A stretch of 64,000 nt of DNA, from contig CAIMLR010000028.1 of the NCBI GenBank assembly GCA_903842345.1, positions 1 through 64,000 of the forward strand, written 5' to 3'. The position numbers and the translations under genes are program-made. The notes below the pieces were generated by a model. The model was not told where the DNA came from and ran no database searches. It saw only the letters and a program-made list of their open reading frames with translations. This stretch comes from an uncultured Myxococcales bacterium (lineage in GTDB: Bacteria > Myxococcota_A > UBA9042). Position 1 is the stretch's first letter; every line of letters begins with the position of its first letter. Of this stretch, positions 49,489 through 60,148 are shown piece after piece.

Positions 49489-52400
49489 TCAGGCGGATTC
49501 TGCGTTTGCCAAGCGCGGATGGCCCGCGATGCCGTCGCGCAGCACTTCAAGCGCCTTGTCAAAGTCAAACGCGTTCACCGCGCGGCCCAAGTCACTCTCC
49601 ACGTCGCCCAGCGCGGCACGCAGCATCCCCGCGCTTTCCCGGAACGTCCGCAGCGCCCGCGCGTCGTCGTTGATCAGCAGGGATTCCAGTTCGCGCACCG
49701 TGAGCCGCAACAACGCCCAGTCCACCGATTCCGACGTCATCGGGTTCGCCGGGCGCAAGCAACTGCGCAAGGCAATGACCAGTTCGCCCAGCACGTCGTC
49801 CAGCTCTGCCAATTCCGCCTGCAGCGTCGCCGGGTCCCGCTGGTCCGGACTCAAGCTGGCTTCCAGCTGCGTGGCAAGCTGGCGCACGGTCTCCGCACCC
49901 ATCGTCGCCGCCAAGCCCTTGAGCGTGTGCGCCTCGCGCTGCGCATCGGTCCAGCGCTTCGCTTCCACGTGGCGGCGCAGCGTTGTCACCGTGTTCCCGC
50001 GTTCGTCGCAGAAGCGCCGCAGCAGGCGCTCATAGGCGCTCCAGTCACCTTCCAGCACGCTCAGGCACGCGCTGATGTCCAGACCCTCGATTCGGGCAAG
50101 GCGTTCGCTCAGCTGGCTGTCATCCTTGGGCGAAGGCGCGAGCAACGGCGGCGTCCGGTCGCGCAGCACCGCGCCGGTCCAGCGGCAGATGGTCGCGAAC
50201 AGCGCGTCGGGGCGAATCGGCTTGGCGATGAAGTCGTCCATTCCGGCTTCCTGACACGCCAGCTTGTCCTCGGCAAAGGCGCTCGCGGTCATCGCCAGAA
50301 TCGGCGTGTGGACGGACGAGGGCCGGAGCCGAAGTTCGCGCGTCGCGGTCAGGCCATCCATCACGGGCATTTGCACGTCCATCAGGATCGTGTCGTAGGC
50401 CTTGGTCTCGGCGCGCGCCAAAGCTTCTTCGCCATTGGCGGCGATGTCGACGACAAATCCCTGGGATCGCAGCAAGTCGCATGCGACTTCCTGATTGATG
50501 GCGTCGTCTTCGACGAGCAGCAGGCGCACGCGATCCGGCGAGACGCCAACGCGAATCGCCCGCGCGACGCCGCTCACGGGAGCCGACGCGATCCCGCGGT
50601 CGCCGAGCATCGACGGCGTAAACGGCAACTCAAACCAGAACGTGCTGCCGATCCCCGGGCGACTTTCCACGCCAATCGTGCCGCCCATGAGTTGCACGAG
50701 ACTGCGCGAGATTGCCAAGCCCAGGCCAGTGCCGCCGTACTTCCGCGTTGTCGACACGTCCGCCTGCTCAAACGGCTCAAACATGCGCGTCACTTGTTGC
50801 GCCGTCATCCCGATGCCGGAGTCCTGCATTTCAAAGCGCAGGTGAATTGAATCGCCGGTGGCCGACACGGGCGTTACGCGCAGAATCACGCCACCTTGCG
50901 CGGTGAACTTGACCGCGTTGCTGCCCAGGTTCAGCAGGATCTGGTTCAACCGCAGCGCATCGCCGCCCAGCCACCGCGGCAGTCCCGGGTCGGCCTCAAC
51001 CGTGAACGTGACGTTCTTCTCGCGGGCGCGTTCGCCGATGCTGTCGCGCAGGTTCTCGAGCACTTCGTCCAGCATGAACTCGGCCTGCTCGATTTGCAGC
51101 TTGCCCGCCTCGACTTTGGACAGGTCCAGAATGTCATTGATGAGCGAGAGCAAATGCTTGGCCGACCGCCCGATCTTGGCGATGCGGTCCCGCTGATCCG
51201 GCCGCGGATCGGCGTGGTCGAGCAGGTGCGTGAGGCCGATGATCGCGTTCATCGGCGTGCGGATTTCATGGCTCATGTTGGCGAGAAAGCTGCTCTTGGC
51301 TTGGTTGGCCGCCTCCGCGCGCTGCTGCGCGAGCGCGAGATCCAGCGTCCGGCTCACGACCAACTGCTCCAGGTGCTGGCGGTACTCGCTGAGCTCAGTG
51401 CTCATCTGATTGAATTCCGTGACGTCTTCCTTCACCGCCAAAAAGTGCGTGATGCGCCCGTCCGGCTGGCGGATCGGCGCCAGGGTCGCACGTTCGACGT
51501 ACTCGGTCTGATCTTTGCGGCGATTGATGAATTCGCCCTGCCACGACTCGCCACGCGCCAAGTGCGCCCACATATCCTGATACGTCTCCGGCGGCGTACT
51601 GCCTGACTGCAGGAACCGCGGATTTTGGCCAATCGCTTCCTCGCGCGTGTAGCCCGTCTGGCGCACGAACGCCGCGTTCACGTACTCAATCCGCGAATCC
51701 ACGTCCGTAATCGCGATGCTTTCCGGGCTCTGGTCGACCGCCATCAGGAGCTTGCGGTTCTCGTCTTCAGCCGATTGCAGGGCGGCCAAATCGCGCAGCG
51801 CGGTCAGGCCATAGCTGACGCTCTCAACCAGCGACGCGAGCAACTGGGTTTCCTCCGCATCAAATGCCGCTGGATTTGACGCATAGGCGACGACGCACAG
51901 CGTGGCGTGGCCGTCCTTGGGCAGAATCGGCAGGCAGATGCCAGACTGGAACCCGTGCTTCTCCGCCACCGGTTGGAACGGTGCCATCCGTGGATCCACG
52001 TCGATGTGCTGCACGACTTCGACCCGATTCTCGCGAATCGCTGTGCTCACCGGGCGCTGTCCCTCGGCATTGTCGGCCCACGTGATCGGCAGACCGTCGA
52101 GGTGGCCATCCACAGCGCCGGCAGAAGCTGCGGACGTCACGGACTTTGCCGCGTCGTTTTCGCCGCGTGCGACCCAGCACATCCGGTAGCCGCCGACCTC
52201 GACCATCGCCTCGACCACGCCGCGCAGCAGGGCTTGCTCGTCGTCGGCGTGCAGCACCACACGCATGGCCGCTGCCAGAAGCCGTTGCTCGCGGTTGATG
52301 CGGCGAAGCGTCGCCTCGGTCGCCTTTGTCGCCGTGATGTCCGTCCAGATGGCGGCCAACAGGGTTTCACCCGCCAGCGCAATCGGTTTCGCGCTGACCC

Positions 52401-54744
52401 GGATGTCGTGGAGCGTGCCGTCGGCCGCCCGCACGCGCGTTTCAGCCGTCGCGCCAGACGGTTGGGTCATCCGGTCTGCCAACGCCACCACTTCGTCATA
52501 CGTCAGGCTGACCTGAAATTCATCGATGGTGAGCGCGGCGAACTGTTCACGCGTGTAGCCAAACGTGGTGTGCGCCGCGTCATTGAACTCCACAAAACGG
52601 TGGCTCTGGACATCAATCAGGGCGATCGCGTCAAGCGCTTGACTGGCCAACGCGGTGAAAATCCCCTCGCGATCGGCGAGCGCGGCCTTGGCCGTCACCT
52701 CAGCTGTGACGTCGCGCATCGTGCCGACCACCTTGGTCGCTTGGCCGGCGGCGTTGTACGTGATCAGGCCGCGGGAGTGGATGTAGCGGAGGTTGCCCCG
52801 CACGGTCAGCAGGCGGTAGTTGTTCTCCGGCTCGGTATGCTCGGCGATCGCGCGATTGAACACTTCAGCCGCAGTCGGCTGATCGTCGGCGTGGATCATC
52901 GCGAACAGCGCCTCTGGGGTGTTGGCGAACGTCGCCGGATCCGCCTCCAGGATCGCGTAGAAACCGGTCGATCCGCGAAGCGCTGACCCGTTCAGGTCGA
53001 CCAACCACGAGCCGCTGTGTGCGAGCGATTCGGCCCGCTCGGTCAGCCGCTCATTCTCCAGCAGCCTCGCCTCCGCGGCGTGCCGGGTGCGGGACTCGCG
53101 CAGCGCCCCACGCTTGGCTTCCAGATCCAGCGCCGTCTCCGCGAGAAGTCCAGCCTCCACCTCGGCAAAAGCCCCAGGCATCTTGTCGTAGATCGTCAAA
53201 GCGCCGTACACGCGATCGCCATCCCAAAGCGGCACGGCGATGGCCGACCGCACGCCCATTTCCTGGAGAAAAGTGCGCGCTGGATGGTCCGCAGCCAGGC
53301 GCGGAATCTCGGAAACCACCACGGTCCGGTACTCGCGGATCGCCGTGCCGGTGGGGCCGTGGTTGAGATCCTCCTCGCCCCACGAGATTGAGCTCCGCGC
53401 GATCGCGTCGATGCCCGCGCCCGCGGCGCCCGCGACTGCAACGCTGCGAGCGGCATCGTCGTTGGCCAGCGCGATCCACGCGTACGGATAGGTCTGCGTC
53501 CCGACGATCGCGTTGCACACGGCCGCGTAGAGATCGCTGTCCGTCAACATCACCTGATGGACGCCGCGCACCGCCAGCATCACGTTCAGCGCCCGGTTGG
53601 CCCGCACCGTGTGTTCCATACGCCCCAGCGACCGGGCCATTGCGTCAAAGTTCGCCGCCAACGCTCCGAGCTCCCGCACGGCGGGACCGGACTCGACGCG
53701 ACTGGCCAGATCGCCCGCGCCCAAGCGATCGGTCGCCCGTGTGAGCGCGGCAATCGGGCGCACGACCCAACGCTTTGCCGATTGCCACAGGGCGAGCATC
53801 AACAGGCTCAAGGCGGTGGCCGCCACCAAGCCCGCCCAACGCGCCGACGTTGGTGCCGCCGCAAGCACCGCGTCGACGGGCTCGGACACCCAAAGCGCCA
53901 GATGCTCCGAGCCATGCGTGCCGTACTTCTTGTATGCAGCGACGCGTTCTATCCCATCCACGCCGGTCACTTCGTCCTGCCCGTTGAAGTCCTGTCCACG
54001 CATGCTCAGGAACAGCGGTTCGTTCACGAGAACGCGGCCGATCAAGCCTTTGACCTCCGGGTAGCGATAGAGGATTCGTCCGGACATGTCCAAAAGACCG
54101 ATCGCCCGCGACGGCGCGAAGTAATTGGTCTCCAAGCTGAATCGCAGCCAGTTTTGATCGAGCGTGACGTTGATTATGGCCACGACTTGACCGGTGTCGT
54201 CGCGCACGGCGGCGAAGATGGGGAGCACAAGCTTGCCAGTCACCGGCCCAATCGTTGCCGCGCCGACAACCGGGTCAGCCCTTTTCAGGGCGGCGGCCAA
54301 TTCCGGCACGTCGTCCAGCTCAATGCGCTTCGCTCCCTCGACGGCGCTGCACAGGACGTCCCCGGTCAGGCTGACGACGGCGACGTTGGCGAATTCGCTC
54401 TCGCGACCGCGCCGCGCCTCCGCGCACAGCTTGGAACAGGTTCGGGTGTCGGGACGGAGGAGTCGCGGATCGCTGCTCAAAAGGCGTGCGAGTTGGATGC
54501 CGGACTCTTCGATGAGGCTGTGCTGCCTCGCGATGGCGTCGGCGACGTACGATAATTTGGCCTTTTCGGCCGCGAGCGCGATGGTTCTTTCGTGTTGGAC
54601 CATCGCCAACACGCCGGTCAGCAAGAGCGCGCCAACGCAGACGAAAATAAGCGACAGACGTCCGCGCAGTCCGGAAAAATGCCCGCGTGGCTCCGAGCGT
54701 GCCCGCTTGACGGATGCGAGGTTGCTGCTCGCCGGTCGCGTCAT
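49489..54744 (-). CDS. Large hybrid histidine kinase (1751 aa)
   Basis: The protein is a membrane sensor with many input modules. It has a membrane helix near residue 30, a periplasmic dCache-type sensor (50-290), a second helix and a HAMP domain, then a GAF domain, two PAS domains, another GAF and a third PAS. The HisKA domain has H1159 in SHEIRTP. The ATPase domain carries [12 protein letters not shown], the receiver has D1456 in LMDVQMP, and a histidine phosphotransfer domain has H1606 in AHTLKGLA. A full internal phosphorelay is therefore encoded; no partner regulator is adjacent. GGAGG precedes the ATG, chosen over an upstream TTG. Confidence 0.9.
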
Positions 54745-55060
54745 GCGGCCTCCGAACCGAGGCAAACACCGGCCGCCAACAGGTTCGGTAAACCCATGCC
54801 ATCGATTTTACAATGATTTATAGCCTGCGGCATGCCCCACCCGTTTCTGCGTGAAGACTCCTTCGAATTCGTTGACACTACCACATTCTTGGAATGACAC
54901 AAACATGTTGCACACGTCGGCGAGACCGAGTGTGCCAGTAGGATTGCGGTGTTCCGCGGCACCCGTGGGGCTCCCAAGCGCATGCGATGGCCCCGTGAAT
55001 AACCGCGCGCACGCCGCGTTTGTAAGTACGGACGCGATGTCCTCAACGATGGAGTCAAAG
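54745..55060. other. Divergent intergenic region between kinase and repeat protein
   Basis: The 316 bases include an AT-rich patch (ATTTTACAATGATTTATAG, 54805-54823) unusual for this GC-rich DNA, probably the promoter zone of the histidine kinase. On the plus strand TTGACA at 54871 is a clean -35 element, but no good -10 follows at 16-18 bases. No gene is evident. Confidence 0.4.
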
Positions 55061-55405
55061 ATGAACATGCAGAAAAAGTCGATGGTGTGGGTGATGACGC
55101 TGCTGGTTGGCAGTTCCTTGGCTGGTGCCGCATTTGCTGGCCCCGCCGCGCGGGCCGATCGCCGCGAGGGCAGGGCGGAAGCGCGGGCGGATCGCCGTGA
55201 AGGTCGTGCGGACGCGCGCGCGGACAAGGCCGACGGTCGCGCCAAGGCCCGTGAAGATCGCGCCGCGGGACATCCAGCGGAGGCGCGCGAGGATCGCCGG
55301 GAAGGTCGCGCCAACGCCCGCGAAGATCGCCGGGACGGCCGCGCCAATGCCCGCGAGGACAAGGCCGCCGGTCGTGCCAAGGCGCGCGCTGAGCAGGGCC
55401 GCTAG
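55061..55405 (+). CDS. Secreted protein of seven tandem 11-residue repeats
   Basis: The 114-residue protein has a signal peptide ending AAFAG. It then consists almost entirely of repeats of the type RREGRANARED: seven units, all 11 residues except one of 12. Conserved positions are Gly4, Arg5 and Ala/Arg/acidic residues at 8-11. Such 11-residue periodicity is the hallmark of group 3 LEA proteins, though the high arginine content is atypical. It should be disordered and highly charged in the periplasm or outside. GGAG lies upstream of the ATG. A stress-protectant or polyanion-binding role is inferred; no neighbours help. Confidence 0.7.
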   Translation: MNMQKKSMVWVMTLLVGSSLAGAAFAGPAARADRREGRAEARADRREGRADARADKADGRAKAREDRAAGHPAEAREDRREGRANAREDRRDGRANAREDKAAGRAKARAEQGR

Positions 55406-55452: not shown

Positions 55453-57582
55453 TCATGTCGTCGGCGGGACGCCGATCGCGCTGCGCAACGCGGCAATGGC
55501 GGGGTCGTGTCGCGTCAGGCCAAGCACTGCGAAGCACGCCGCGGCGCGCTCCACGTGAGCCAGCGCGGCCAACGGCTGCTGCTGGGCCAGGAGGGCATCG
55601 GCCTGCCGCACGTGCCACGCGCCGGTCAGCTCCGTTGGGCCCAAAGCCTGCAGGAGCTTGGCCGCACGACCCAGCCACAGCGCCTGCCGTTCCCGCTGGG
55701 CTTGGAACCGCGCAACGTCCGCCAGCGCCAGCAGACAGCGCGCCGCCAGCAGCGAATGACCGAGTTCCTCCGCGCTGGCGAGCGCTTGGTTGGCCAACAA
55801 CGCGGCGTGATCCGCGTGTTGCAGTCGCAAGAGGGCGTCGGCCGCGGCCAGGCGCAGCTCAGACAACGCCGCGACCGCGTCATCGGGAGTCGGCGTCTCC
55901 GAATGGCCCACGTGCGGCGCCAGGAGTGTCCACGCTTGCTCGCTCTGCCCCGCGGCGTTCAGGCCAGCGCCATAGGCCGCCAGCATTTCCAGCCGCAGCG
56001 GCGCACGCGTGCTCGCTGGCAGCTGCCCGACAATCCGCGCGAGCCCCTGCGCCGCGCCTTGCGGGTCGCCCGTCGCCGCCCGCAGCCGCGCCGCCGCCAT
56101 GTTCAGCCGGAGCCGCAGCGGATCGCCGCCCGCCAACCCGGCATCCGCCATCACGCCTTGCGCCTCCGCCAGCGGCCCGCGCGCCGCCGCCAGCCAGCCG
56201 CACGCCAGCAGCCAGTCGATGCGCGCGTTCAGCGCCGCGAGCCATGGCCCCGGCTCCGTTTGGGAGGTCAGCAGCGCCACCGCGCGGGCCAGATGGTGGT
56301 CCCGGGTCAACGCGGTCTTCGCCGTCGCCGCGCTCTCCTGCGCCAGCCGCGCCGCATCCCGCAAACGCCGGGCTGCCAGGTACAGCCGCGTCGCATCCTC
56401 ACGGGTCGCCTCACGCTTCTGCCCGCAGGTCTCCACCGCCATCGCGACGCGCGCGCACACCTGCCGCCGTTGCCGGGGGGACAGCCGCCGCAGCGCCGAT
56501 TCCCGCGACTGCGGCGCGCTCCACCGCCAGTCGTCAGCCACGCCCTCGATCTGGCCCGCCCGCCTCAGTTCCGCGAGCACGTCCGGCGGCGGCGTTGTCC
56601 CCAGCGCCTCGCGCAACGCGCCTGGATAGCCAGAAGGCAGCACCGCAAGCACCGCCAGGATCTGCTCGGCCACGCCCAGCGGGTGAAGCGCGATGCTCAG
56701 CATCGGCACCGGCAGCTCGGAGCTGGTCTTGGACGTGGTGCCCGGATCGATGTCCGGCATCCCGACAAGCGGCCCTCGGAGGTGCGGAAGCCCCAGCGCC
56801 CGCAGCAGCGCATCGACAAAGACGGCCGTCGATCCGAATCGTTGGCCCGGCTGCACGGCGAGCGCGCGCTGCAGCACTTCCCGCGCCTTCGTCGGCACTT
56901 CCAGGTCATCGGGCAACTGCGGCGGGTCGTCTGTCCGTGGCCGCACCGGGCGTTTTCCCGCCAGCAGCTCCACCGCCATCACCGCCAGGGCAAATTGGTC
57001 AGACGCGGGCGTCGGCGGGCCGTGCAGCAACTCGGGCGCCAAATACGCCATCGTGCCGTGGCTCAGCGGCTCGTGCGCGCGCCCATCGGTCTGCGAGCGC
57101 GCGAGGCCAAAATCCGCGAGCTTGGCGAGCTGCGCGCGCTTCTTCAGCATCACGTTTTCCGGCTTGACGTCGCAGTGCACCACGCCGGCTTCATGCGCGG
57201 TCGTCAGCGCCGACGCCAACTGTGCGAGCCACGTCGCCGCCAACGCGCGCCCCGGCGGATCGCCGCGCAGGTGTTGGCGCAGCGACCCGCCGTCAACGTA
57301 CTCCATCTCGATGAACGGCACGCCGCCGACATCCCCCAACGCGTGCACCGCCACCACGTGCGGGTGCACCACGCGCGCCGCCGCGCGCGCTTCCAGCAGC
57401 GTCTTGAGCGCCGCGGTTTCCAGATCGGGAACGTGATCCAGCACTTTTACGGCGACGCGGCGGTCCAGCAGTTCGTCGTGGGCGAGGTAGACGGTGCCCA
57501 TGCCGCCTTGACCGAGCACGCGCTCGATCAGCAGCGCGTGGTTCAGGCGATGACCGGGGCGCAGCGTGGGCTGGTGGGACAT
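55453..57582 (-). CDS. Ser/Thr kinase with HCD catalytic loop and helical-repeat tail
   Basis: The 709-residue protein has an N-terminal kinase domain (about 15-270): GQGGMGTVY, K46, D138, and DFG at 157-159. The catalytic loop reads HCDVKPEN, so the arginine before the aspartate is replaced by cysteine (C137), as in non-RD kinases that do not need activation-loop phosphorylation. The other 400 residues are helical repeats of TPR type (AALLANQALASAEELGHSLLAARCLLALADVARFQ) with no membrane helix. It therefore looks like a soluble kinase with a protein-binding tail. GGAGGATG precedes the ATG. It diverges from the Cys-rich lipoprotein gene. Confidence 0.87.
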   Translation of the reverse strand: MSHQPTLRPGHRLNHALLIERVLGQGGMGTVYLAHDELLDRRVAVKVLDHVPDLETAALKTLLEARAAARVVHPHVVAVHALGDVGGVPFIEMEYVDGGSLRQHLRGDPPGRALAATWLAQLASALTTAHEAGVVHCDVKPENVMLKKRAQLAKLADFGLARSQTDGRAHEPLSHGTMAYLAPELLHGPPTPASDQFALAVMAVELLAGKRPVRPRTDDPPQLPDDLEVPTKAREVLQRALAVQPGQRFGSTAVFVDALLRALGLPHLRGPLVGMPDIDPGTTSKTSSELPVPMLSIALHPLGVAEQILAVLAVLPSGYPGALREALGTTPPPDVLAELRRAGQIEGVADDWRWSAPQSRESALRRLSPRQRRQVCARVAMAVETCGQKREATREDATRLYLAARRLRDAARLAQESAATAKTALTRDHHLARAVALLTSQTEPGPWLAALNARIDWLLACGWLAAARGPLAEAQGVMADAGLAGGDPLRLRLNMAAARLRAATGDPQGAAQGLARIVGQLPASTRAPLRLEMLAAYGAGLNAAGQSEQAWTLLAPHVGHSETPTPDDAVAALSELRLAAADALLRLQHADHAALLANQALASAEELGHSLLAARCLLALADVARFQAQRERQALWLGRAAKLLQALGPTELTGAWHVRQADALLAQQQPLAALAHVERAAACFAVLGLTRHDPAIAALRSAIGVPPTT

Positions 57583-57788
57583 CAGGCATCCTCCGCCCGG
57601 CCAGTTTGCCATGGCTTGGGTCGGCTGGTCGAGTGTCGAGAAATCCAACAATGTGGGAATTGCCTGCAGTCGGCCCGTGCGCGTGTGCGTCCCGATGCGC
57701 TGCGGCGCCGGTTTCATGGCCGCGGATTCCGTTTCCGCATCAAGTTCTTGCGCGTTGTTTGGCGCCACTGGCAGAGGGCGCGGAGACG

Positions 57789-57804
57789 TGGCACACTTCC
57801 TGCA
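57789..57804 (+). promoter_or_regulatory. Sigma-54-type promoter of the Cys-rich lipoprotein
   Basis: TGGCAC-N5-CTGCA matches the -24/-12 consensus TGGCAC-N5-TTGCA except for one base, with the exact GG-N10-GC spacing. It lies 52 bases before the ATG. Confidence 0.6.
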
Positions 57805-57856
57805 ACACGTAGTAGCACGCAGGGTTGTCCAAATGGCCATGCGAGAGGGGAATGTC

Positions 57857-60148
57857 ATGCGCACGCAAATCCACACGATCCAGCGGAATTTCAACCACCG
57901 GGTTGGGCTTTTTGCCGCACTGGCGGTCATGGGCCTCGCGCTCAGCGGCTGCGGTTCAGATGAGGGCGTGGCGGGCAACGAACCCATCGACAGCCTCATC
58001 GGCGGCGGCAGCGACACCTCACTCGGCACGGACGATGCCATGACGGTCGGCGACACCGAGTGCGGCGAATTCTCGGTGTGCGACGTCCACGTTCCCGGCG
58101 ACACCTACGAAAACGACGGCTGGAATCCCGGCGACGCGTGGAACCCATGGGACAGCTTCACGCCCGACGCTGGCCCCGTGCTGTGCGTGAGCGACAACAA
58201 CTGTCCGTCCTCGCCATGCAGCAAGGGCGTCTGCGACCCGAACAGCCACCAGTGCGTCGCCTATCTGGCGCCGGATTACAGCTTCTGCCCGGGCATCGGC
58301 GGCGCGTGCGGCGTCGACGGCTACTGCCAGGCCGGCAAGTGCATGGCCAAGGGCATGACCTGCGACGACGGCAATCCGTGCACGCAGGACGCGTGCGACC
58401 CCGCCAGCGGCTGTATTTACCAGCCGATCCCCGGCTGTGGCGGCGGCTGCAAGTCGGACAGCCAGTGCAACGATGGCGACCCCTGCACGGGCGACTACTG
58501 CAAAGGCGGGAGCTGCATCTCCGTCGCCATTCCCAACTGCGGCTCAACCGGATGCCAGAACGACGCGCAGTGCAATGACGGCATCCTCTGCTCGATCGAC
58601 AAATGCCAATTCAGCGCCAGCGGCGTGGGCAAGTGCGTCCACTTTGCGGCGGCGATGGACAGCGTCCAGTGCTGCGATCCGCTGGTGAACCTCGCGGCTT
58701 GCAACGACGGCAACCCGTGCACGACCGACTACTGCGGCGGCAATTACCAGTGCAACTACGCGCTGATTCCCGGCTGCGGCATCCCCGGCTGCACGAACGA
58801 CATGCAGTGCGACGACGGCATCAAGTGCTCGATCGACAAGTGCCAGTTCGGCGCGGACGGGTTGGGGCAGTGCTCCCATACGGGCGACCTGAGCCAGAAG
58901 GGATTTTGTTGCGATCCGAACATGAACATGATCACCTGCTACGACGGCAATCCGTGCACGGCGGACCAGTGCGGCATGGACTTTCAATGCAGCTACCCCC
59001 AAGTGCCCGGCTGCGGCAACGGCTGCAAGACCGGCCAGGACTGCAATGATGGCAACGCCTGCACCACCGACATGTGCTACGGCGGCCAGTGCGCGTACGG
59101 CGGCATCGCGTGCGCCAGCAGCGATCCGTGCACGACCGTCGCGTGCGATCCCAAGTCCGGCATGTGCATCGCCACGCCGATTCCCGGCTGCGGCGGCAAT
59201 GGCTGCAAGGCGGACTTCCAGTGCGACGACGGCAACTTCTGCACCGTCGACGCGTGCTTGATCGACGCGACGGGGACTGGCAAGTGCATCCACAAGGTCG
59301 ACCCGACGCAGATTGGCCTGTGCTGCGACCCCGCGTCCAGCAGCATCCCGCCGTGCAACGACGGCGACGCGTGTACGCAGGACATCTGCGGACCGGACTA
59401 CATGTGCCAGTTCATCCCGACGCCGGGCTGCGTCAACAAGTGCAAGGCGGACAGCGATTGCGCCGCGGGCGACGTGTGCACAATCGCCAAGTGCGACGTG
59501 GCCAGCGGCGTCTGCCTCTACGGCACGATTCCCAACTGCTGCAACCCCGCGTACTGCGATGACGGCAACCCGTGCACCAAGGACGGCTGCGACGCGGCGA
59601 CCGGCGGCTGCAACTGGACGCCGATTCCCGGCTGCACCAAGCCGTGCGATCCCGTGTCGTGCAACGACTACAACCCGTGCACGTCGGACGGCTGCGACAG
59701 CGTGGGCAACTGCGTCTACAAGGTCATCCCGAATTGCACCGCGCAGTTCTGCAAGTCCGACGTGGAGTGCCAGGATGCCGACAAGTGCACGCAGGACCTG
59801 TGCGACACGGCGAGCTACACGTGCCAGCACTACCAGATCCCCGGCTGCGGCATGCTCATGTGCATGACCAACGCGGACTGCAACGACTTTGACAACTGCA
59901 CTGGCGACCTGTGCCTCAATGGTTCGTGCGCGCACAAGGCCGTCACGTGCGATGACGGCAACCCGTGCACCGCGGACCAATGTCTGGCCATGACGGGCGG
60001 CTGCAGCAACGCGCCGATTCCCGGCTGCACCGCGACGCCGTGCAAGTCGGACGCGATGTGCGACGACAAGAACTTCTGCTCGCTCGACACGTGCGTGACG
60101 GGTTGGTGCAACCACCTGTTCGTCCCGGGCTGCTTCCCGCCGCCGTAG
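57857..60148 (+). CDS. Lipoprotein with about sixteen tandem Cys-rich modules
   Basis: The 763-residue protein starts with a lipoprotein signal peptide (lipobox LSGC), an Asp/Gly-rich linker, and then Cys-rich modules to the end. About sixteen copies of CxDGNPCTxDxC occur (for example CDDGNPCTQDAC, CNDGNPCTTDYC), alternating with IPGCG turns. Three copies use a longer form with CSIDKCQF...GxGxCxH...CCDP. Such disulfide-bonded repeats are typical of Myxococcota surface proteins and probably form a stiff extracellular stalk with possible Ca binding through the DGN loops. The ATG follows AGAGGGG and a sigma-54-type promoter. Function is unknown. Confidence 0.85.
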   Translation: MRTQIHTIQRNFNHRVGLFAALAVMGLALSGCGSDEGVAGNEPIDSLIGGGSDTSLGTDDAMTVGDTECGEFSVCDVHVPGDTYENDGWNPGDAWNPWDSFTPDAGPVLCVSDNNCPSSPCSKGVCDPNSHQCVAYLAPDYSFCPGIGGACGVDGYCQAGKCMAKGMTCDDGNPCTQDACDPASGCIYQPIPGCGGGCKSDSQCNDGDPCTGDYCKGGSCISVAIPNCGSTGCQNDAQCNDGILCSIDKCQFSASGVGKCVHFAAAMDSVQCCDPLVNLAACNDGNPCTTDYCGGNYQCNYALIPGCGIPGCTNDMQCDDGIKCSIDKCQFGADGLGQCSHTGDLSQKGFCCDPNMNMITCYDGNPCTADQCGMDFQCSYPQVPGCGNGCKTGQDCNDGNACTTDMCYGGQCAYGGIACASSDPCTTVACDPKSGMCIATPIPGCGGNGCKADFQCDDGNFCTVDACLIDATGTGKCIHKVDPTQIGLCCDPASSSIPPCNDGDACTQDICGPDYMCQFIPTPGCVNKCKADSDCAAGDVCTIAKCDVASGVCLYGTIPNCCNPAYCDDGNPCTKDGCDAATGGCNWTPIPGCTKPCDPVSCNDYNPCTSDGCDSVGNCVYKVIPNCTAQFCKSDVECQDADKCTQDLCDTASYTCQHYQIPGCGMLMCMTNADCNDFDNCTGDLCLNGSCAHKAVTCDDGNPCTADQCLAMTGGCSNAPIPGCTATPCKSDAMCDDKNFCSLDTCVTGWCNHLFVPGCFPPP

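Follow-up and report, generated by a model that had tools for sequence, protein, structure and literature searches.

We analysed a 64,000-nucleotide stretch of DNA from an uncultured Myxococcales bacterium (contig CAIMLR010000028.1; hereafter the window), and in particular an open reading frame on its forward strand at 55061-55405, which starts with an ATG at 55061 and encodes 114 amino acids. The frame lies between a divergent gene for a hybrid sensor kinase and a convergent gene for a Ser/Thr protein kinase (Table 1). The Ser/Thr kinase is also the convergent neighbour in three other genomes of the genus (G001, G003 and G004), with an intervening permease-like frame, named by reading only, in G001 and G004, while in G002 the gene and the kinase sit on different contigs. 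By reading of the open reading frame lists, the upstream neighbours differ among the genus genomes, which fits a one-gene unit. Of 8 genomes searched from the family's other genera, 7 have a homologue of the kinase. A crude scan of the 1.4-4.5 kb next to these seven homologues, with the stretches of G006 and G012 ending at the contig start, found no exported charged frame. The window also contains a large cysteine-rich frame with Dictyostelium-type repeats (57566-60148, + strand; PF00526, E 9.4e-45).

Table 1. Features at and around the gene, in window coordinates.
Feature	Position	Strand	Basis or remark
Hybrid sensor kinase (PAS, GAF, HisKA, receiver, Hpt)	49489-54765	-	Divergent, upstream of the gene
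Promoter-like element GTGAATAA-N12-CGCGTT, containing GAAT-N16-CGTT	54995-55020	+	Two conserved islands, exact spacing, 5/5 genus genomes
Inverted repeat GGAC-GCGAT-GTCC in the leader	55030-55042	+	GGAC-N5/6-GTCC at the same place in 5/5 genomes
Shine-Dalgarno-like GGAG	55051-55054	+	Read in five leaders
Putative signal peptide, residues 1-26, cleavage between AFA and GP	55061-55138	+	Read by eye; homologues have the same layout
N-terminal arm with four 11-mers (mature residues 1-42)	55139-55264	+	Repeat register; AlphaFold2 helix 2-42
Hinge AGHP, full-length residues 69-72, within the 12-residue unit	55265-55276	+	One-residue insertion relative to the 11-mer register in 4/4 full-length proteins; loop in the model at residues 43-45 of the mature part
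C-terminal arm with three full 11-mers and a partial one	55277-55402	+	Repeat register; AlphaFold2 helix 46-86
Stop codon TAG	55403-55405	+	
Ser/Thr protein kinase (open reading frame)	55453-58104	-	Convergent, downstream; kinase domain at residues 194-393

The gene, its repeat and its upstream region

The N-terminus consists of MNMQKK, a hydrophobic stretch and the AFA cleavage motif, without a lipobox cysteine, and by this reading, made by eye and not with a predictor, the protein is exported with a Sec signal peptide. The mature part has 88 residues, among them 24 Arg, 4 Lys, 10 Asp, 10 Glu, 25 Ala and 9 Gly, and contains no Val, Ile, Leu, Met, Phe, Trp, Tyr or Cys. Identity at a lag of 11 residues is 0.55, compared with 0.39 as the best value at any lag from 2 to 24 across 2000 shuffles. 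Picking units by a pattern in which position 3 is R, position 5 is D or E and position 9 is G, we found seven full 11-mers, starting at residues 29, 40, 51, 62, 74, 85 and 96, followed by an incomplete eighth; units four and five start 12 residues apart instead of 11. The unit fits xAR[AE]DR[RA]EGRA, and at the DNA level Tandem Repeats Finder reports periods of 33 and 102 at the gene. The original prediction had placed at these coordinates an exported, arginine-rich protein whose mature part is filled almost entirely by seven 11-residue repeats of the type RREGRANARED. The coordinates, the number and extent of the repeats and the export all agree with our reading, and the proposed unit is a rotation of ours. 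The mature part is more than arginine-rich, since its Asp and Glu residues make it a polyampholyte, with a net charge of +8.

The gene is present in 5/5 genomes of the genus (that of the window, G000, and four others), the copy in G003 being split across two contig ends. All four full-length proteins, including that of the window, have a mature part of 88-89 residues with seven full units and lag-11 identities of 0.54-0.62, against shuffle maxima of 0.38-0.40, so the period, whose loss in homologues would have refuted the original prediction, persists in them; the mature parts hold 0-1 residues of the set VILMFWYC. Between species, units at equal positions are more alike (0.79, n = 42) than units at differing positions (0.66, n = 252). 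Together with the equal unit number in 4/4 proteins, this leads us to regard the array as old and fixed in length, unlike a slipping tandem array.

The reading frame is under purifying selection. For the mature part, dN/dS is 0.05-0.18 in 6/6 pairs of the four full-length genes, at dS values of 0.89-1.86 that are near saturation, and the substitutions between G000 and G001 fall mostly in third codon positions (6/15/50). The start is supported by the GGAG located 6 nt upstream of the ATG and by the homologues, which share this start position. We also considered that the locus might be no gene at all, that is, a GC-rich repeat with an accidentally open frame, for which it speaks that, in the window, the region encoding the mature part is open in all three antisense frames as well. 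The substitution pattern and the conservation of the start, the ribosome site and the promoter-like element all argue against this reading, which is already refuted as far as sequence allows and which we regard as scarcely credible. By comparison among these genomes, then, 55061-55405 is a real gene, and in the genomes searched it is restricted to the lineage of one genus.

All absences and counts from the genome searches outside the genus are lower bounds, with up to 89 candidates scored per genome for the single-sequence query, up to 88 for the class profile and 12 for the phylum profiles. A search with a profile made from the four full-length sequences gave no match at E <= 1e-4 in 47 other genomes of the class, with up to 88 candidates scored in each. 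Weak matches at E <= 1e-3 in two genomes of the class, G032 and G034, were, in one case, another exported repeat protein and, in the other, unrelated; matches in G020 and G039 to the single-sequence query were also read and judged unrelated. Two short-pattern searches beyond the genus returned 592 and 594 matching stretches, none of them confirmed by tblastn, where low-complexity filtering may hide true homologues. With the window protein as query, we obtained no match in a plasmid protein search, none in PHROGs up to E = 1, nothing above cut-off in NCBIfam (best E 0.061) and one insignificant match in a PDB sequence search (E 0.19). Literature searches with the repeat-unit strings and on this protein found nothing.

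Upstream of the gene, five leaders were aligned by anchoring on TGAATA, which sits 64-68 nt ahead of the ATG. Two islands stand out in this alignment, namely the 8-nt bins TGAATAAx and xxCCGCGT, with mean pairwise identities of 0.86 and 0.81, compared with 0.29 for the spacer between them and 0.16-0.44 for the fifteen bins upstream of the element. The full pattern GTGAATAR-N12-CGCGTT is exact in 4/5 genus genomes and has one mismatch in G002. The spacing GAAT-N16-CGTT is presumably that of an ECF-sigma-like promoter; a literature search on this label found nothing, and a scan for sigma-70 promoters gave no site. A comparison of the inverted repeat in the leader with Rfam yielded nothing up to E = 1. 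Allowing one mismatch, the promoter pattern occurs at the gene in 5/5 genomes and at 14 further sites, compared with 7 for the reversed control, while the leader dyad pattern has 42 sites in the five genomes, 5 of them at this gene and 37 elsewhere, compared with 22 for reversed controls. Several of these 37 sites are found in more than one genome and may lie in coding sequence. Across the five genus genomes, neither pattern yielded a demonstrable regulon, and no neighbour or regulon pointed to envelope stress or polyanions.

Charge geometry and predicted shape

Modelled as an 11/3 helix (98.2 degrees per residue), the repeat separates its charges. The centroids of Arg/Lys and Asp/Glu lie 167-194 degrees apart in 8/8 arms of four proteins, and the charge moment at 98.2 degrees exceeds that of all 2000 shuffles in six of these arms, the other two being reached by 2 and 4 of 2000. 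Each arm carries 14-15 basic and 8-11 acidic residues. Among residues spaced i+3/i+4 in the window protein, 7 charge pairs are opposite and 40 are like, and the other three genus proteins show 12/36, 9/43 and 12/36. Since residues one turn apart are mostly like-charged, a free helix should be weak, and the pattern points to a protein that would be a weak helix alone and would become helical upon neutralisation or drying.

This arrangement sets the protein apart from two familiar kinds of charged helix. Single alpha-helix (ER/K) domains are very highly charged helical sequences, as the window protein is predicted to be, but the excess of opposite charges at i+3/i+4 that marks them (147 opposite and 22 like in an (EEEEKKKK)n reference) is absent here. 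Alpha-synuclein has 11-mers with the motif KTKEGV and forms an 11/3 helix, and the window protein likewise has an 11-mer with a Lys/Arg-x-Lys/Arg-Glu-Gly-like stretch; what it lacks, as expected from the 0-1 VILMFWYC residues of the mature genus proteins, is an apolar face for membrane insertion.

AlphaFold2, given the single mature sequence, predicted two helices of 41 residues each (pLDDT 92.8, pTM 0.74), joined by a turn where the single 12-residue unit lies. As a partial control we used the opposite-strand translation of this DNA, which derives from the same repeats and break yet has a different composition, hydrophobic and with prolines; it was predicted as one continuous helix (pLDDT 69.1, pTM 0.30). 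A fold search with the hairpin model found no solved structure at E <= 0.001, and 12 weak matches up to E 10. The mature protein is probably a helical hairpin with opposed charge faces, as far as the model goes, and the fixed unit number and the conserved hinge suggest a defined shape. If the two arms are antiparallel and packed via their Ala faces, equal faces come to lie on the same side, giving a plank that is basic on one face and acidic on the other; this would follow from the geometry rather than from the coordinates of the model. By the same geometry, an antiparallel hairpin of the 11-mer unit brings like charges next to each other where the arms meet, which counts against the hairpin. 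Avoidance of such charge clashes was judged by eye and found too weak to claim.

Relation to other 11-residue repeat proteins

The unit of group 3 LEA proteins has an apolar helix face. The corresponding trait of the LEA_4 family, a regular Lys/Asp-Glu/Ala composition with such a face, is absent from the genus proteins, which have 1-7 Lys against 22-29 Arg per mature part (four full-length proteins) and opposed charged faces instead. A search of the window protein with LEA_4 (PF02987) gave no match up to E = 10, a range in which the HMMER filters remove the majority of matches weaker than about 0.1. The protein does share with group 3 LEA proteins, whose unit is given as TAQAAKEKAGE in PMC6559209, an 11-residue period, hydrophilicity, Ala and one Gly per unit, and helix potential. 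It differs in having Arg for Lys and opposed charge faces where an apolar one would be, in being exported by our reading, and in its lack of a profile match. The proposed likeness to group 3 LEA proteins, which protect plants on drying, is loose and supported in part, and by the tests made here the protein is LEA-like in kind and not a member of LEA_4.

A periplasmic desiccation protectant or polyanion binder had been thought unusual, but an exported bacterial LEA-like protein of 11-mers has a precedent. As described in PMC8096337, BilRI of Aggregatibacter is an outer-membrane lipoprotein with eleven 11-mers, linked to LEA_4 by its authors, and resembles the window protein in being exported, bacterial, made of charged 11-mers and free of bulky hydrophobic residues. 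That description also sets it apart, as a lipoprotein with Lys/Asp-Glu/Ala units, 10/11 of them ending in KD[A/T]. According to the same paper, BilRI is 97% helical by PSIPRED prediction and disordered by NMR, LPS contacted only residues outside its repeats, it had no interaction with DNA, and its deletion reduced natural transformation (PMC8096337). Helix prediction can thus mislead for such proteins, at least by the example of BilRI.

These precedents bear on the possibility that our protein, once exported, protects against desiccation as LEA proteins do: a disordered polyampholyte, it would turn helical on drying and shield proteins and membranes of the envelope, needing no specific ligand. 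Domains of group 3 LEA proteins are reported to be disordered in buffer and helical on drying, and Deinococcus DrG3LEA is a bacterial 11-mer LEA protein (both PMC6559209); together with the exported BilRI (PMC8096337), the period, the single Gly per unit and the very hydrophilic composition speak for this explanation. The missing LEA_4 match and the opposed charge faces in place of an apolar one do not, and a fixed unit number with a conserved hinge suggests a defined shape. On balance, we find a desiccation protectant somewhat unlikely.

The other proteins to be compared come from the same phylum. A profile of the genus proteins matched 16/377 genomes at E <= 1e-3, with 12 candidates scored per genome; 5 of these are the genus itself, and two of the other 11, G032 and G034, belong to the same class. 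By reading, four of the 11 remaining matches are short exported charged repeat proteins (L030, L032, L033 and L040), L038 is another exported repeat and L036 (G209:C42:3276-3593, - strand) is an exported protein with DTKDGAxDAW-type repeats that looks LEA-like; L031, L034, L035, L037 and L039 were set aside as unrelated or low-complexity frames. A profile built from two of these four short charged repeat proteins, both with LDRRGDRID repeats and neither being that of the window, matched 39/377 genomes at E <= 1e-5 (12 candidates scored per genome), a figure that includes two genomes matched through the present gene and some matched through other repeat proteins. We read 30 loci and 9 further stretches, of which G013 is Lys-rich and G223 and G352 are other repeat proteins, and extracted 26 proteins from the 30 loci, leaving out L065, L066, L068 and L070. 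Proteins L041-L064 and others have an apparent export signal, 11-mers of the type LDRRGDRIDRR in varying number and one central AAxxGHxxxAxxLDRKGD-like element. The central pattern A-x-x-x-G-x-x-x-x-A-x-x-[LIF][DE] is found in 23/26 proteins of the set, the match in L047 being misplaced. Two members scanned against Pfam and NCBIfam had no match above cut-off, and a plasmid protein search with one LDRRGDRID protein gave none.

The LDRRGDRID proteins and the window protein have in common a signal peptide, charged 11-mers with R-x-D-R and a central break, and the like-charge pattern at i+3/i+4 recurs in 6/6 LDRRGDRID proteins measured. They differ in that the former have Leu and Ile in each unit, residues missing from the mature part of the latter, and the window counterpart of the central element, DRAAGHPAEARED, is by eye three residues shorter. 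It could be that the gene encodes a divergent member of this group in which Leu and Ile were replaced by Ala and Glu and which shares the putative envelope role of the group. The LDRRGDRID profile matches the window gene at 3.0e-7 and that of G002 at 3.8e-6, in keeping with such a kinship, and gave no match at 1e-5 in G001, G003 and G004 (12 candidates scored per genome). We compared mature parts alone with a profile of the 16 of 26 set proteins that have at most 150 residues. Residue shuffles reached the real score in 0/500 cases for each of four genus mature parts, but column-permuted decoys reached it in 8, 22, 14 and 43 of 500 (G000, G001, G002 and G004), and the reversed sequence scored above the real one for G000 and G002 and below it for G001 and G004. 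In the opposite direction, with a genus profile against six LDRRGDRID-family proteins, permuted decoys reached the score in 3, 1, 12, 87, 2 and 43 of 500. Composition and period can therefore explain most of the match, and we rejected it as proof of family membership. The two can be called the same kind of protein, with a kinship that is putative, and we consider membership of this group unlikely.

Further exported repeat proteins were seen in the family. The genome of the window has a second one, L002 (G000:C5:84087-84377, - strand), which is Lys/Glu-rich (EAKKEGKEKKE), and a similar one is found in G004 (L019, on C137). Another genus of the same family has an exported Lys-rich protein with AEKxEKK repeats (L071, G013:C224:43615-43926, - strand), whose central AADKGEEKKAEKLE stretch resembles that of the LDRRGDRID proteins.

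A possible role at the cell envelope

The explanation we tentatively prefer, as a possible one, is that the genus-restricted gene encodes a Sec-exported polyelectrolyte with two arms, perhaps stress-induced, which folds on contact of its Arg face with a polyanion. It starts from the selection on the frame, the repeat and its conservation, the charge geometry and the upstream element, which are direct observations, takes the export signal as read by eye, and adds to them a predicted hairpin and a putative ligand, induction and role. The protein would reside in the periplasm or at the surface, its eight 11-residue units, of which the last is partial, being divided equally between two arms that the conserved hinge connects. 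Each arm, if helical, would present a stripe of Arg/Lys opposite a stripe of Asp/Glu, and the antiparallel hairpin would be a flat plank, basic on one face and acidic on the other. Alone, the protein might be largely disordered, and folding would occur once a polyanion of the envelope, such as LPS phosphates, extracellular DNA or capsule, neutralises the Arg face. Alternatively, the acidic face of another copy, or drying, may trigger folding. Once folded, it could protect the envelope electrostatically or hold it together like a glue, and its own promoter would allow induction by stress. A polyanion binder, as originally suggested, is a reasonable if putative idea.

Contacts between copies could also go further, the Arg face of one hairpin stacking on the acidic face of the next to form a self-assembling filament or sheet. 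Such an assembly would be in line with the opposed faces and with the numbers of basic and acidic residues per arm, but the low hydrophobicity favours solubility, and we hold it to be quite improbable. In a more speculative version of these ideas, which is rather doubtful, the protein would be a 'Janus' hairpin without any apolar face, its only designed feature being one arginine and one acidic face, and would serve at the cell envelope as an electrostatic switch that folds on a polyanion or stacks into filaments. The helix would then form only once a face is neutralised, and the LDRRGDRID proteins, with their Leu and Ile, would be the ordinary, stably folded counterpart.

If the predicted fold is true, the protein would be a very simple natural case of a shape set only by the pattern of charges, with no apolar core and in an exported compartment. 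The finding also draws attention to the exported 11-mer proteins of the same phylum.
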